Both the position numbers and the translations under genes were made by a program. Positions 22,858-61,407 of a stretch of DNA of 64,000 nucleotides are shown in pieces. Source of the DNA: Bdellovibrionales bacterium (GTDB lineage: Bacteria; Bdellovibrionota; UBA1018); contig JAEUWC010000030.1 of assembly GCA_016786465.1 (NCBI GenBank), positions 124,001-188,000 on the forward strand, given 5' to 3'. Every line of letters begins with the position of its first letter. Position 1 is the stretch's first letter. The notes beneath the pieces were generated by a model. It did not search any database, had not been told where the DNA came from, and was given only the letters and a program-made list of their open reading frames with translations.

Positions 22858-22941
22858 TGTGCAGTTGTCGGAACCGTGTCGGAAGTTGTCTTACGGGCTG
22901 GTCCGCGGCGTCTCTGTTCAGTTGTCGGAACTGTGTCGGAA
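22858..22941 (+). repeat. Two tandem plus-oriented repeat units
   Basis: Units at 22858-22885 and 22914-22941. Each has two TGTCGGAA boxes with an 11-bp period (22866-22873 and 22877-22884 in the first). Consensus core GTTGTCGGAAGTGTGTCGG, with C or CC variants between the boxes. Confidence 0.75.
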
Positions 22942-22950
22942 GATTAAACA

Positions 22951-23033
22951 TTCCGACATACTTCCGACAACTGAACAGGCAGCGCTCCGACGACAGCCGG
23001 ATCCAATTCCGACATACTTCCGACTAGTTCAGG
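22951..23033 (-). repeat. Two tandem minus-oriented repeat units
   Basis: Units at 22951-22978 and 23007-23033, 56 bp apart. The outer one is degenerate at one end (CTAGTTCAGG in place of AACTGAACAGG). Confidence 0.75.
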
Positions 23034-23195: not shown

Positions 23196-24035
23196 ATGAA
23201 TTCCAAATTCAAAAAGTTCTCAAGCCTGACCATCATCACGCTGGCCTTTTCATTCACCCTGATCACGAGCGGATGCGCGAATGGCGAACCCACGGCAACC
23301 ATCAAAGTTCCGTCGATTACTCAAGTGTCCATCATTGAAGCAACCCTACAAGCTTGCCCAAACGGCGGAATCCTGGTTCAGAGCTTCACCGACAGCAACG
23401 CAAACGGAAACTTGGACACCGGCGAAAAGATCGTCTCTGCACTTCCAGTCTGCAACGGAACGAATGGTACGAACGGCACCAATGGCACCCATGGGATCGA
23501 CGGCGTCGACGGGCAAAGTATCGGCATTTCAATGTCCGACGCTCCGATCGGAAGTTGCCCAGCTGGCGGATCAACGATCCACACCTTTTCCGACTTCAAT
23601 CGGAACATGATCCAGGACACCGACGAAATGATTTTGGCTTCAAGCACGATCTGCAACGGCGCCAATGGCCACAACGGAAAAGACGGAAAGAACGAAAAAG
23701 AAGGCAAAGTCATCGCCATGGGTGCGGTTGGTCCCGAAGTCCCAGGAAAGCCCTACAGCGCTTGCCACCACGATTATTTGTTCATCCCGGGTCAAGATCA
23801 AGCCGAAGGGTGGTTGATCTTTCGCCACCAGAAGAATGGTTCAGCCGACCAAGGCATTGGCAAGACGGGCTTCAACGTCTGGAACGTCGACATCACAGAC
23901 TTCCAGTTGGCTTCTGAAGTCGGCAGCATCATTTACTGCCAGATGACTTGGAACCCCGGAACTCAAACGCTAACCTACTCGGTCGTTGACAAGTCCGACG
24001 GCCTAGCCGGAAAATCGGGAACTATTCGTTTTTAG
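23196..24035 (+). CDS. Lipoprotein with two DUF7151-like repeats and collagen-like linkers
   Basis: ATG 23196 follows aggag at 23185-23189 and gives lipobox ITSGC (Cys27). 279 residues. Two copies of a Cys/Gly/Asp pattern typical of DUF7151 are visible: CPNGGILVQSFTDSNANGN with LDTGEKIVSALPVCNG, and CPAGGSTIHTFSDFNRN with IQDTDEMILASSTICNG. Each is followed by Gly-X-Asn/Asp triplets (GTNGTNGTNGTHGIDGVDG; GANGHNGKDGKN). The D-x-N-x-N/D runs could bind calcium. The C-terminal 90 residues form a separate domain (HHDYLFIPGQDQAEGW). Probably displayed on the outer membrane. 25 bp upstream of the interrupted lipoprotein gene. Confidence 0.82.
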   Translation: MNSKFKKFSSLTIITLAFSFTLITSGCANGEPTATIKVPSITQVSIIEATLQACPNGGILVQSFTDSNANGNLDTGEKIVSALPVCNGTNGTNGTNGTHGIDGVDGQSIGISMSDAPIGSCPAGGSTIHTFSDFNRNMIQDTDEMILASSTICNGANGHNGKDGKNEKEGKVIAMGAVGPEVPGKPYSACHHDYLFIPGQDQAEGWLIFRHQKNGSADQGIGKTGFNVWNVDITDFQLASEVGSIIYCQMTWNPGTQTLTYSVVDKSDGLAGKSGTIRF

Positions 24036-24060
24036 CTCAACGCCCCCGAAGGAGACCGTC

Positions 24061-24651
24061 ATGGAAAAGACTTCTTGTTTGCTGAGTGGATTGCTTGTTG
24101 CATTCAGTTGGGTTGCCGCTAGTGGGTGCGCCAAGAACTAATCCAGCGAAGTGCGCGCAATCACCAAGGCGCTGATGAAGAACGGAGTTGGTTGTCCGAG
24201 CTGTCCTACTCCTTCGGATACCAATGATCATTGCACCAACGACAGCTACTACAACTTCCACGCAGGAAGTTCTTCAGCCTCGGAAACCATTTCGTGCAGT
24301 GGCGGCGTGCGCAGAAACGATTACGCGATTTCGGGAAACCTTCAGATTCAATGCAAAGACCAAGTGTATCAGCTGAAGAACGGGACGGTTTCTGCATCGC
24401 TTCCCATACCCACGGCCGTATCGGGCGGAAACCAGTATTCGGTCAGCCTTAGTCTGAACACGAGCGTAACCGGCGGAACGGATTTACTTAAAGACGGTTA
24501 CAAAGACATTCGTTGCAGTTTCACAGCGGTCTATGTCGGCGGCACGGAAGCTGATTCCATCAGTTCGGGAGCCTTCAGCTGCAGAGTCGACGGTGAAGAA
24601 GTTTCACGGGAAGACCTTCAAGAAGCAGGGTACGAAAACACGGATTGTTGA
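24061..24651 (+). pseudogene. Lipoprotein gene interrupted by an in-frame TAA just after the lipobox
   Basis: ATG 24061 with a good Shine-Dalgarno (aaggag 24047-24052) encodes a 26-residue lipoprotein signal, ending ASGCAKN, then TAA at 24139-24141. The same frame continues without another stop to 24651 as a 169-codon secreted-type sequence rich in Cys pairs (GCPSCPTP, NDHCTND, ETISCSGG, IQCKDQ, RCSFTA, FSCRVD, NTDC). The continuity of frame, signal and Cys-rich body says one ancestral gene of about 196 codons. The body alone could start at GTG 24151 but would lack a signal and Shine-Dalgarno. Alternatives are stop-codon readthrough or a genuine tetrapeptide lipopeptide. Followed by the MuiA-type gene. 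Confidence 0.65.
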
Positions 24652-24687
24652 TGCGTGTTGCGCCGAGTTGCGGTTATTCTGTTTGAA

Positions 24688-26340
24688 ATGAAAACCAAAC
24701 GCATCGCATTTTTGGTGGCAGGCGCATTTCTTTCAATCCCATTCGCAGCGGCGACAACGACGCCCACCACAAAGGCCGTCACCCTTCCCAAGCAAGTCAC
24801 AATCTACCCCAACGGAGCCCGCGTCGTTCGCGAAGGAAAAGTCGAATTGAAAGAAGGAACCCATTCGGTCCTTTTTACCGACATCCCAGCTTCGATCGTT
24901 GAATCATCGCTTAGGCTTTCAGTCGAAGGACCAAAAGGAACTCGATTCTACGGTGTTGCGATGAAAAAAGAATTCACTCCAAAAATCGTTGATGCGCGAA
25001 CCCGCAAGCTTCGAGAAAAACTTCAAGTTCTGCAGGACGAAAAAACGGATCTTCACGACAAGATGGAAGCCCGCCGTGCCGAAATGAACATTCTTCGCAC
25101 CTATGGGCAGACCCCGAAGCCCGTTGGAAACAAAAAGACCAAAGAAGTCAGCGCGGTCGACTTCACACAATCGGCGGCTACGATCGCTAAGCGAATTGCT
25201 GCCTTGACGGCGGACAATCGAAAAGACGAAAGAAAAGTTCGCGAAATCGATTTGAAGATCAATGCCCTAAATGGCGAATTGGCGCAGGGAAGTTCAAGCG
25301 CCCGCGAAAAGCGGACCGCACAGGCGGATCTGGAATTAAAGACCGCAGGTACCGTGCAGTTCAAGCTGACGTATCAAGTGTCGGGCGCATCTTGGACACC
25401 CGTATACGATCTGAACTTGGATTCCCAAGGCGAAAAGCCAAAACTGGAACTTGGATTCAACGGCACGATTCGCCAAAGCACGGGCGAAGATTGGAAAGGC
25501 GTGACGCTTCTTCTTTCTACCGCGCGTCCCTCCGAAAACACTCAGGTACCTGACCCGACCAACTGGTGGCTAAGCTACTACACCGTGCAGACGCAACTTT
25601 ATCGTTCCCGATCCGGAATGCCTTCAGCAGCCCCGGAAGTGGCCGCACGGGACGTCGAAGTCGGAAAAAAATTCATGAAGGGCAAGGCAGAAGAACTGGA
25701 ACCTGCCGAATTAGAACTAGCAAAGACGGTTCAGGCTGCTTTCACCGTCACCTATTCAATCAATATCCCCAAAGACATTCCATCGGATGGATCTGACCAT
25801 CGGGTGGGAATTGTGCAATCACCCCACGACGTCGAACTTTCGCTGGTCGTGGTTCCCAAGCTATCGCTGGCCACCTTTATCGACGCAAAAGTGACTTATG
25901 GTGGGGACCAGATTCTTTTGCCTGGAAATGCGCAACTTTTTCGTGACGGAGAATTTGTCGGCACCGCCAGCCTGGCTGCTAAGGCACCGGGTGAAACGTT
26001 CAATCTAGGATTTGGGCAGGACGATTTGGTTCGGACGGAAAGAAAAAAGGGCGACACAAAGTCTAGCCCAGGCGATCGCCGTTACCAGTGGACGACGACC
26101 GTTTCGAACTTTCATCCATCCGCCCGCGCCATTGAAGTTCGCGAACAACTGCCACGCACCCAGCAAAAAGAAATTAAGATCGAAGCAATGGACATCAGCC
26201 CGGATCCGCTGCCTGAAAATCCGGAAAGGCCCGGCCTTTACAGTTGGAAGCTGAACCTAAAGCCGAAAGAAAAGGCTTCCATTGTCTTTTCGTATCGAGT
26301 CCGGCATCCCGAAAAAGTCGACGTTTCAGGATTGGAATAG
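24688..26340 (+). CDS. MuiA family protein (DUF4140/DUF4139), exported
   Basis: Start taken at ATG 24688, giving a signal peptide (MKTKRIAFLVAGAFLSIPFA) cut near AAA-TT. 550 residues. N-terminal DUF4140 at about 28-120 (VTIYPNGARVVREGKVEL, ESSLRLSVEG), a central coiled coil (RKLREKLQVLQDEKTDLHDK), and DUF4139 from about 205 onwards (LTYQVSGASWTPVYDLNL, GEDWKGVTLLLSTARP, IPSDGSDHRVGI, YSWKLNLKPKEKASI). The family is named for the mucoidy inhibitor MuiA; the biochemical role is unknown and it is thought to act in the envelope. The Shine-Dalgarno is weak and the start could lie at the alternative upstream TTG. Convergent with the next gene. Confidence 0.88.
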   Translation: MKTKRIAFLVAGAFLSIPFAAATTTPTTKAVTLPKQVTIYPNGARVVREGKVELKEGTHSVLFTDIPASIVESSLRLSVEGPKGTRFYGVAMKKEFTPKIVDARTRKLREKLQVLQDEKTDLHDKMEARRAEMNILRTYGQTPKPVGNKKTKEVSAVDFTQSAATIAKRIAALTADNRKDERKVREIDLKINALNGELAQGSSSAREKRTAQADLELKTAGTVQFKLTYQVSGASWTPVYDLNLDSQGEKPKLELGFNGTIRQSTGEDWKGVTLLLSTARPSENTQVPDPTNWWLSYYTVQTQLYRSRSGMPSAAPEVAARDVEVGKKFMKGKAEELEPAELELAKTVQAAFTVTYSINIPKDIPSDGSDHRVGIVQSPHDVELSLVVVPKLSLATFIDAKVTYGGDQILLPGNAQLFRDGEFVGTASLAAKAPGETFNLGFGQDDLVRTERKKGDTKSSPGDRRYQWTTTVSNFHPSARAIEVREQLPRTQQKEIKIEAMDISPDPLPENPERPGLYSWKLNLKPKEKASIVFSYRVRHPEKVDVSGLE

Positions 26341-59269: not shown

Positions 59270-59896
59270 GTGCCTACTTTATTGCGGTTTTTGAAGACAG
59301 GAACGCCTCTGTTTTTGGTTCTGGGCTTGGCTTCGGCCTCTCTGACCTTTCAGGGTTGCGGTCGTGGGAAGGGAAAGATTCCAGGCTTGGACCGGATTTC
59401 GGTGCAGGTTTTGGAAGGACGCCTTTACGCCAGCTTCGTCGCAAAAAAACTTCAATGGGATGTGGGCATCACCTTTCCGATCCCGGGACTTCCGGACAGC
59501 AGCTTTGCGGTTGCGCCCGATTTTGCGTCCAACGGAACCCTGTTTCAGATCCAAGTTCCCTTGGCGTCGCTGGCGCGTGCGGCGGCTCCGGGCGTTCTTC
59601 CTTGGCTAGGACTTCCAGATGGACGTGCGCTTCCGGATGTTTCTTATGGTGTTCTTCCGCGCTGGGATTTCCACGTCGGTGCGCTTCGAATCTCCGCTTA
59701 TCTTTCACCCGAAGTTTTCGGGATCTACATTCCTCTGCCGTTGAATCTTCCGGTGGGAACGTCTTTACCTTTCTATCTTTCATTTCCAGTGACGGATGAA
59801 AAAGGAAATCGCTTGGGCAAGGGCTATGCTGTGCCACCCGGCCCCTCAGGCGAAGCAGGAGTCCTTCTTCTGCTAACAGTGGGTGGCGGAAAGTGA
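59270..59896 (+). CDS. Lipoprotein, first of a tandem paralogous pair
   Basis: Start GTG 59270, fixed by aggag 5 bp upstream. 208 residues with lipobox TFQGC (Cys30), then basic GRGKGKIPG. The mature domain alternates hydrophobic strands with repeated Pro/Leu: LQWDVGITFPIPGLPDSSFA, VAPDFASNGTLFQI, LPDGRALPDVSYGVLP, VFGIYIPLPLNLPVG. It shares this plan with the next gene (about 35% by eye). Unknown family, probably an outer-membrane-anchored beta domain. Confidence 0.78.
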   Translation: MPTLLRFLKTGTPLFLVLGLASASLTFQGCGRGKGKIPGLDRISVQVLEGRLYASFVAKKLQWDVGITFPIPGLPDSSFAVAPDFASNGTLFQIQVPLASLARAAAPGVLPWLGLPDGRALPDVSYGVLPRWDFHVGALRISAYLSPEVFGIYIPLPLNLPVGTSLPFYLSFPVTDEKGNRLGKGYAVPPGPSGEAGVLLLLTVGGGK

Positions 59897-59900
59897 ACGT

Positions 59901-60536
59901 ATGAATACTCAATTGAAGAGGACTTCCGGTTGGATCGTCGCCCTAACCGCTGCGCTGATGGTGAGCGGTTGCGGACGAGGCTCCAACAAGAACGTTAAAA
60001 TCGATGGCGTTGACGGCCCTCGCGTGAACTTCGTCGATAACAAGTTCACGATGGCGTTGACCTTGACCCAAGTGCAGTTTGATGTGGGAACACGAATTCC
60101 GATTCCGAAACTTCCGAACAGTTATGTGGAAGTCGGTCCGGATTTCGCGACCAACGGGCTTCTGATCAGCATCGGAATTGATGCTCGGGACCTGGTGGCG
60201 ATGGCCGGCGGACAAGCCGCGCTTTTGGATCCTACGACACTTCCTGGCGGCAGACCGCTTCCAGGTGTGGCGGCTGGAGAACTTCCAGGCTTGGCCGTTC
60301 AGGTTCCTAAGTGGAACGACATCGTTTTCTATCTGGGGACGGCTTTGTTCGGCGTCTTCGTGCCGGTCAACCTTCCTTGGAAGGACTACATGGGAACGTT
60401 CCGTTTCTATGACGGCGCGGGCGATCGCATCGGAAATCTTTCGATCGTTGGCCAAGACTCGAACGGCCGCAACAGCGGCGTGCTTCTGCTGATCAACCTT
60501 GCTGGCAAGGTCGGTAAGCTCGCGGGTCTGCAGTAA
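59901..60536 (+). CDS. Lipoprotein, second of a tandem paralogous pair
   Basis: Start ATG 59901 behind ggcggaaag; 211 residues with lipobox MVSGC (Cys24). Same order of motifs as the preceding gene: VQFDVGTRIPIPKLPNSYVE, VGPDFATNGLLISI, LPGGRPLPGVAAGELP, LFGVFVPVNLP and SGVLLLINLAG. Spacing of 4 bp and shared motifs indicate an old tandem duplication. Two hairpins follow, the second a good intrinsic terminator. Confidence 0.78.
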   Translation: MNTQLKRTSGWIVALTAALMVSGCGRGSNKNVKIDGVDGPRVNFVDNKFTMALTLTQVQFDVGTRIPIPKLPNSYVEVGPDFATNGLLISIGIDARDLVAMAGGQAALLDPTTLPGGRPLPGVAAGELPGLAVQVPKWNDIVFYLGTALFGVFVPVNLPWKDYMGTFRFYDGAGDRIGNLSIVGQDSNGRNSGVLLLINLAGKVGKLAGLQ

Positions 60537-60625: not shown

Positions 60626-60634
60626 GTTTCGGGG

Positions 60635-61234
60635 TCATCCTGTTCCGTTGTCGGAAGTGTGTCGGGTTTCGTTTGGCCCCAGGCCCTTGGGTCCTCCTGT
60701 GCAGTTGTCGGAAGTGTGTCGGGTTTCGCCGCGATTCGGCCCATTCGGAGCCATTTGCGCCCCCTGCTTACTCAGTTCAACCAGTTCTTTTTCGTGCATT
60801 TTCATGACGCCATAAAGTCGGTCCCAAACGCCGGGGTGGGGAAGATGCTTTCCCCGTTCCAGATCGCTGATATGCCCGCGATTGATCTGGGTCATTTGCG
60901 ACAAAGTTTTTTGAGACCATCCCAGCTTTTGCCGAAGAATCCGCAGCCGATATCCCCAGATTTTCCGATCGTGGTCCTCGCCAAGGTCGATCGCGTCCGG
61001 ATGCGAAGTCCGGACATGAAGGTGGCTACGAAGCTGAAACGGCCGTTCCAGATGGCAGATGTCGATTTGTTCCAGGCTGTACAAAGTTTTCCGTTCAAGT
61101 GCCTTGAAAAAGGTCAGAAGAATCGTTTTTCGGACTTCGGGTGTGACTGAAGCAAAGGTTGTGAGCTTAACATCCAGACGAAATCCCCGCCACGAACTGA
61201 CTTGGCCAACCGTATACGTTTCCCTTGGGCTCAT
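60635..61234 (-). CDS. XRE-type helix-turn-helix protein with repeat-encoded C-terminus
   Basis: 199 residues. A TGA lies directly before ATG 61234, fixing the earliest start; Shine-Dalgarno is poor. Residues 1-95 are of unknown type (TILLTFFKALERKTLYSLEQ, HLHVRTSHPD). Residues about 96-150 are an HTH_3/Cro-type DNA-binding domain: LRILRQKLGWSQKTLSQMTQ, INRGHISDLERGKHLPHPGV. Residues 169-199 are encoded by the two left-end repeat units and contain RHTSDN twice (172-177 and 191-196), the stop lying one base beyond the outer unit. It is the only gene inside the element and may bind the repeats. No nuclease or transposase motif is seen; the N-terminal part could be a remnant. Confidence 0.7.
   Translation of the reverse strand: MSPRETYTVGQVSSWRGFRLDVKLTTFASVTPEVRKTILLTFFKALERKTLYSLEQIDICHLERPFQLRSHLHVRTSHPDAIDLGEDHDRKIWGYRLRILRQKLGWSQKTLSQMTQINRGHISDLERGKHLPHPGVWDRLYGVMKMHEKELVELSKQGAQMAPNGPNRGETRHTSDNCTGGPKGLGPNETRHTSDNGTG
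60639..60723 (+). repeat. Two tandem plus-oriented repeat units, 57-bp period
   Basis: Both contain GTTGTCGGAAGTGTGTCGG preceded by CCTGTTCC or CCTGTGCA. The period is 19 codons, so on the minus strand they encode two in-frame copies of RHTSDN in the C-terminus of the HTH protein. Confidence 0.8.
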
Positions 61235-61303
61235 TCAGGAAGAGCGTCAGCAGCAAACGTTCCAATGGTTGTGGGTCTTTCGACAACCTACGATCGCACT
61301 TAC

Positions 61304-61400
61304 TTCCGACACACTTCCGACAACTGAACAGAGTGCCCAGGACCCCCGCGCCCGCCAAAGTCCGACACACTTCCGACAACTGAACAGAGTGCCCAGAACC
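61304..61400 (-). repeat. Two tandem minus-oriented repeat units, 57-bp period
   Basis: Units 61304-61331 and 61361-61387 read CCGACACACTTCCGACAACT on the plus strand. Similarity extends beyond the core through GAACAGAGTGCCCAG to about 61345 and 61400. They lie between the HTH gene and the 3' end of the protoporphyrinogen oxidase gene. Confidence 0.8.
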
Positions 61401-61407
61401 TCCGTAC

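Follow-up and report, generated by a model that had tools for sequence, protein, structure and literature searches.

The question raised by this locus is what has become of a lipoprotein gene whose reading frame is closed directly behind its signal and then continues, in the same frame, as a cysteine-containing domain. The gene may have been silenced, the stop codon may be an error or may be read or bypassed, or the short product itself may be used. The window, that is the whole stretch of DNA analysed here, is 64 kb long. The first-pass annotation had described a stop right after a lipobox with a body continuing in the same frame, and we verified the start codon, the TAA and all 169 sense codons up to the TGA (Table 1). 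The leader (24061-24138) translates as MEKTSCLLSGLLVAFSWVAASGCAKN, with the lipobox ending in SGC and followed by AKN, and satisfies the type II signal criteria of our own rule (charged N-terminus, hydrophobic core, lipobox Cys). The TAA thus lies four residues into the mature protein. The body frame has neither a second stop nor a frameshift and ends at the C-terminal Cys of its family, and no hydrophobic signal was seen by eye at its start.

Table 1. Features of the interrupted gene, its neighbours and its relatives in other genomes
Feature	Position	Strand	Remarks
Upstream neighbour	23196..24035	+	Intact lipoprotein, DUF7151 (Pfam); ends 25 nt before ATG 24061
Shine-Dalgarno-like AAGGAG	24049..24054	+	6 nt 5' of ATG 24061
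Leader ORF	24061..24141	+	26 codons: lipoprotein signal, lipobox ASGC, then AKN, TAA
In-frame TAA stop	24139..24141	+	Next base T
Body of interrupted lipoprotein	24142..24651	+	169 codons, 8 Cys, TGA 24649-24651; homologous to lipoproteins elsewhere
First in-frame start-like codon after stop, GTG	24151..24153	+	No Shine-Dalgarno
In-frame ATG after stop	24175..24177	+	Weak AAGG 5 nt upstream; product without signal peptide
Downstream neighbour	24688..26340	+	Intact DUF4140/DUF4139 protein, signal-like N-terminus
Relative in G036	L002/L012/L022		Single frame: signal, lipobox Cys, body
Relative in G018	L013		Single frame: signal, lipobox Cys, body
Relative in G002	L014		Single frame: signal, lipobox Cys, body
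Relative in G367	L021		Most distant relative; single frame: signal, lipobox Cys, body
Relative in G029	L015		5' side cut by contig end

Using a detector for a lipobox ORF of 16-60 amino acids that is followed, beyond its stop, by 120 or more open codons in frame, we found the present case as the single match in 64 kb, while 30 mononucleotide shuffles and the reversed window gave none. The thresholds of this detector were chosen after the case had been seen, and it is not exhaustive, missing a likely lipoprotein at 59270. Five intact lipoproteins were found in the window by the same lipobox rule.

Judged from sequence, the body is real coding sequence, and the strong evidence for this is its homologs and not its codon use. 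We consider it coding because it has relatives in five other genomes and because its synonymous codons are gene-like. Its synonymous codon score was 0.085, a value that none of 2000 randomized synonymous versions reached (-0.283 +/- 0.082); the mean for 37 chosen ORFs of the window was 0.21. The whole-codon score was weak: its 0.089 per codon was the highest of the six frames, with one antisense frame reaching 0.049, and it fell to 0.06 when only 24 ORFs served as reference. Among the 37 reference ORFs, 36 had whole-codon scores of about 0.27-0.55 and one scored -0.06.

Searching with the body alone gave matches at E up to 1 in 9 of 58 genomes, own genome included, where the only clear match beside the own genome was the protein of G036 (E 1.5e-6). 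A two-row profile extended this to 5 of 55 genomes of the order and 5 of 58 of the class (E up to 0.01, own genome included). With a five-row profile, 6 of 368 genomes of the phylum were found at E up to 0.001, the own genome being one of them (5 of 367 others); all other genomes of this comparison set come from different genera. In public contigs, none of the 63 pattern matches obtained with the body alone was confirmed as a relative, and the two-row alignment A2 gave 39 pattern matches with one confirmed. This was JADZFF010000189.1 from the MAG Bdellovibrionales bacterium isolate SJ854, which by eye carries the same protein as G036 and was counted once with it. No second copy of the gene was found in the own genome. 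In the relative from G018 (L013:1105-2187, minus strand), the family domain is followed by a Pro/Thr-rich linker and another Cys-containing region, so a longer lipoprotein has this domain as well.

All four relatives whose 5' end is present are uninterrupted where the window has its stop, and the fifth, in G029, is uninformative. For the proteins of G036 and G367 an internal Met was taken as the start, since the signal begins there. An alternative raised by the first-pass annotation, namely that in relatives the downstream part has a signal and a start of its own, was not borne out, the relatives being single-frame lipoproteins. The one uninterrupted frame of these four makes it most likely that the window gene descends from an intact lipoprotein gene. 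When five proteins were aligned, the lipobox Cys of the leader fell in the same column as those of the four relatives. No homology of the leader itself was measurable with a profile of the four relatives: the read-through protein scored 36.9 bits, compared with 40.2 for the body alone, and shuffling the leader gave a score equal to or above that of the real one in 198 of 200 copies. What ties the leader to the body is frame, distance and architecture only. As signal peptides tend to be poorly conserved, the lack of detectable homology is no argument for a separate origin of the leader.

Taken together, our preferred reading is that one nonsense codon has silenced a lipoprotein gene, and we assign this a probability of roughly 70%. 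The ancestral gene would have encoded one lipoprotein, lipidated at the Cys behind its type II signal and holding its cysteine-containing domain on the envelope side. Here, the TAA would stop translation four residues into the mature protein, leaving a lipo-tetrapeptide at most, and the body would not be made. That the organism truly carries the stop and makes no functional body is an inference, as is the cell location of the intact protein. Three options had been put forward for the locus before, and only the nonsense mutation gained support, from the four single-frame relatives, while recoding and a real tetrapeptide gained none. The further suggestion that the loss is recent is consistent with the lack of further stops or frameshifts, but its age cannot be dated from distant relatives. 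A body that is still fully open and has gene-like synonymous codons would also fit continued use, and the absence of a second lesion would fit a very recent loss, a consensus error or continued use alike.

The main rival to a silenced gene is that the stop is not fixed, either because the consensus or the sequencing is in error or because the assembly caught a minority allele, so that the gene would code for an intact lipoprotein. We consider such an error or polymorphism unlikely, albeit the most serious of the alternatives. It would agree with the fully open body and with the intact frames of the four 5'-complete relatives, and the assembly, in 30 contigs with 97.11% completeness and 0.59% contamination, is compatible with it. 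However, no other split gene was recognized by eye among 51 same-frame pairs in the window that are separated by a stop, and most of these pairs resemble neighbouring genes or antisense shadows. As a control the scan is weak, since its codon-score filter kept 22 of the 51 pairs and dropped the present case too.

Another possibility is that ribosomes pass the stop often enough to be useful, yielding a small amount of full-length lipoprotein. The intact body would agree with this, and one survey reports that conserved in-frame stops are widespread in bacteria, with many in bacterial genes under purifying selection (PMC7918605). As in those genes, the open frame here goes on past the stop inside the gene; however, the cases of that survey were accepted only when at least two genomes shared them, whereas the present stop is seen in one genome only and in none of the four 5'-complete relatives. 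According to a study in E. coli, TAA showed the lowest read-through among the stops in reporters, and a T after the stop raised termination accuracy in the proteome (PMC11126739). In the window, TAA terminates 13 of the 37 chosen ORFs. No suppressor tRNA, that is no stop-reading anticodon, was found among 39 tRNAs of the own genome (150 of 253 candidates scored), a set that lacks tRNA-Ile(GAT) and may be incomplete. RF2 gave one match above the cut-off in the own genome. In E. coli, accurate termination is favoured at a TAA with a T behind it; since, in addition, TAA ends 13 of 37 ORFs and no stop-reading tRNA was seen among the 39, recoding of the stop is unlikely, and read-through at a useful rate is extremely so.

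A re-start behind the stop, at the GTG or the ATG given in Table 1, would yield the body without a signal. Both codons are in frame and at most 36 nt past the stop, and the ATG has a weak AAGG 5 nt upstream. The GTG, however, has no ribosome-binding site of this kind, and the product would lack the signal peptide that all four 5'-complete relatives have, which makes a re-start very unlikely. The lipo-tetrapeptide (lipidated Cys-Ala-Lys-Asn) might itself be the product, given the well-formed start, ribosome site and lipobox of the leader. Yet a recently silenced gene would keep an equally well-formed leader, and none of the four 5'-complete relatives has a stop at that place; we hold this reading to be hardly probable. 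Even jointly, read-through, re-start and a real lipo-tetrapeptide are quite improbable. It is just as doubtful, at the very low level of the single readings, that this lineage uses a strong stop directly after the lipid-anchor residue to ration the export of a lipoprotein. In such a scheme the four-residue lipopeptide would be the main product, and low-level read-through or re-start would provide the body. The locus is most likely a silenced gene of the ordinary kind, or else an assembly error, and not a new reading of the genetic code.

The interrupted gene resembles bacterial single-nonsense pseudogenes in its intact start and leader, its one in-frame stop, its open remainder and its unbroken relatives. 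It differs from them in that the age and the reality of the stop are unproven, the stop being known from one assembly. A literature search found no paper on this gene among the titles listed. In itself the case matters little, adding one more nonsense-bearing gene in one genome. It is, however, a clean example of a stop after a signal peptide that should be judged by its relatives before recoding is proposed.

The lipobox and the cysteines suggest that the intact protein is likely to be a small envelope lipoprotein with disulfides. The window copy agrees with the other members of its family (rows of the alignments A4 and A7) in the body, the conserved cysteines and the C-terminal Cys. It differs in the stop after the lipobox, where the four 5'-complete members carry signal and lipobox in front of the body with no stop. 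At two positions where all four other rows of A4 keep a cysteine, the window copy has Ser and Arg. The protein of G367 also lacks Cys at both positions, and the loss in the window copy therefore need not be a sign of decay. The two residues may form a disulfide pair that was lost together more than once.

Searches of Pfam and NCBIfam with the window body gave nothing at E up to 1. For six family members, no NCBIfam match was above the cut-off; three of them gave five matches with E between 0.0024 and 0.58, all in the N-terminal part. Pfam matches of the relatives had E values of 0.085, where the model's own cut-off was not given, and 0.088, the latter in the protein of G036 and below the cut-off; the protein of G367 had none. 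Against PDB sequences, two matches at chance level were obtained (E 0.51 and 0.95). A structure predicted for the body with one relative had a mean pLDDT of 42.6, and the strands and C-terminal helix that it shows are a hint at most. The lipoprotein family, having no convincing Pfam or NCBIfam model, might merit a family model of its own.

From the spacing, the interrupted gene is probably the middle one of a three-gene run. The upstream neighbour contains a weak collagen-like stretch that stays below the cut-off. The start of the downstream neighbour was set at its ATG, giving a gap of 36 nt to the interrupted gene, and an in-frame GTG is also present at 24655. Three promoter-like sites were found, compared with 1.3 +/- 0.9, one of them 5' of the gene (23986-24015), and one terminator-like site compared with 2.8 +/- 1.9. 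These scans have little bearing on the question of the stop.

A mobile origin of the gene is unsupported. The window had no match to phage records at the DNA level, the body protein had none in plasmids, and the relative from G036 had none in viral contigs. A repeat-driven switch was also considered and rejected, there being no tandem repeat in 23900 to 24700.

Elsewhere in the window, at 22858-23024 and 60632-61404, we observed a dispersed repeat with the core GTTGTCGGAANNGTGTCGG, whose copies stand in direct orientation at a spacing of 56-57 nt and also form inverted pairs. We counted the core 15 times on six contigs of the genome and the reversed control not once. A helix-turn-helix gene (60635-61234, minus strand; Pfam HTH_31 and HTH_3) lies between inverted copies and overlaps them, its C-terminal end being coded by the repeat itself. 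Together, the gene and these copies might form a small mobile or regulatory unit. At 59270-60536, two adjacent, slightly overlapping genes encode related lipoprotein-like proteins with 35% identity over 192 aligned positions (E 9e-26), and this pair is probably an old tandem duplication.
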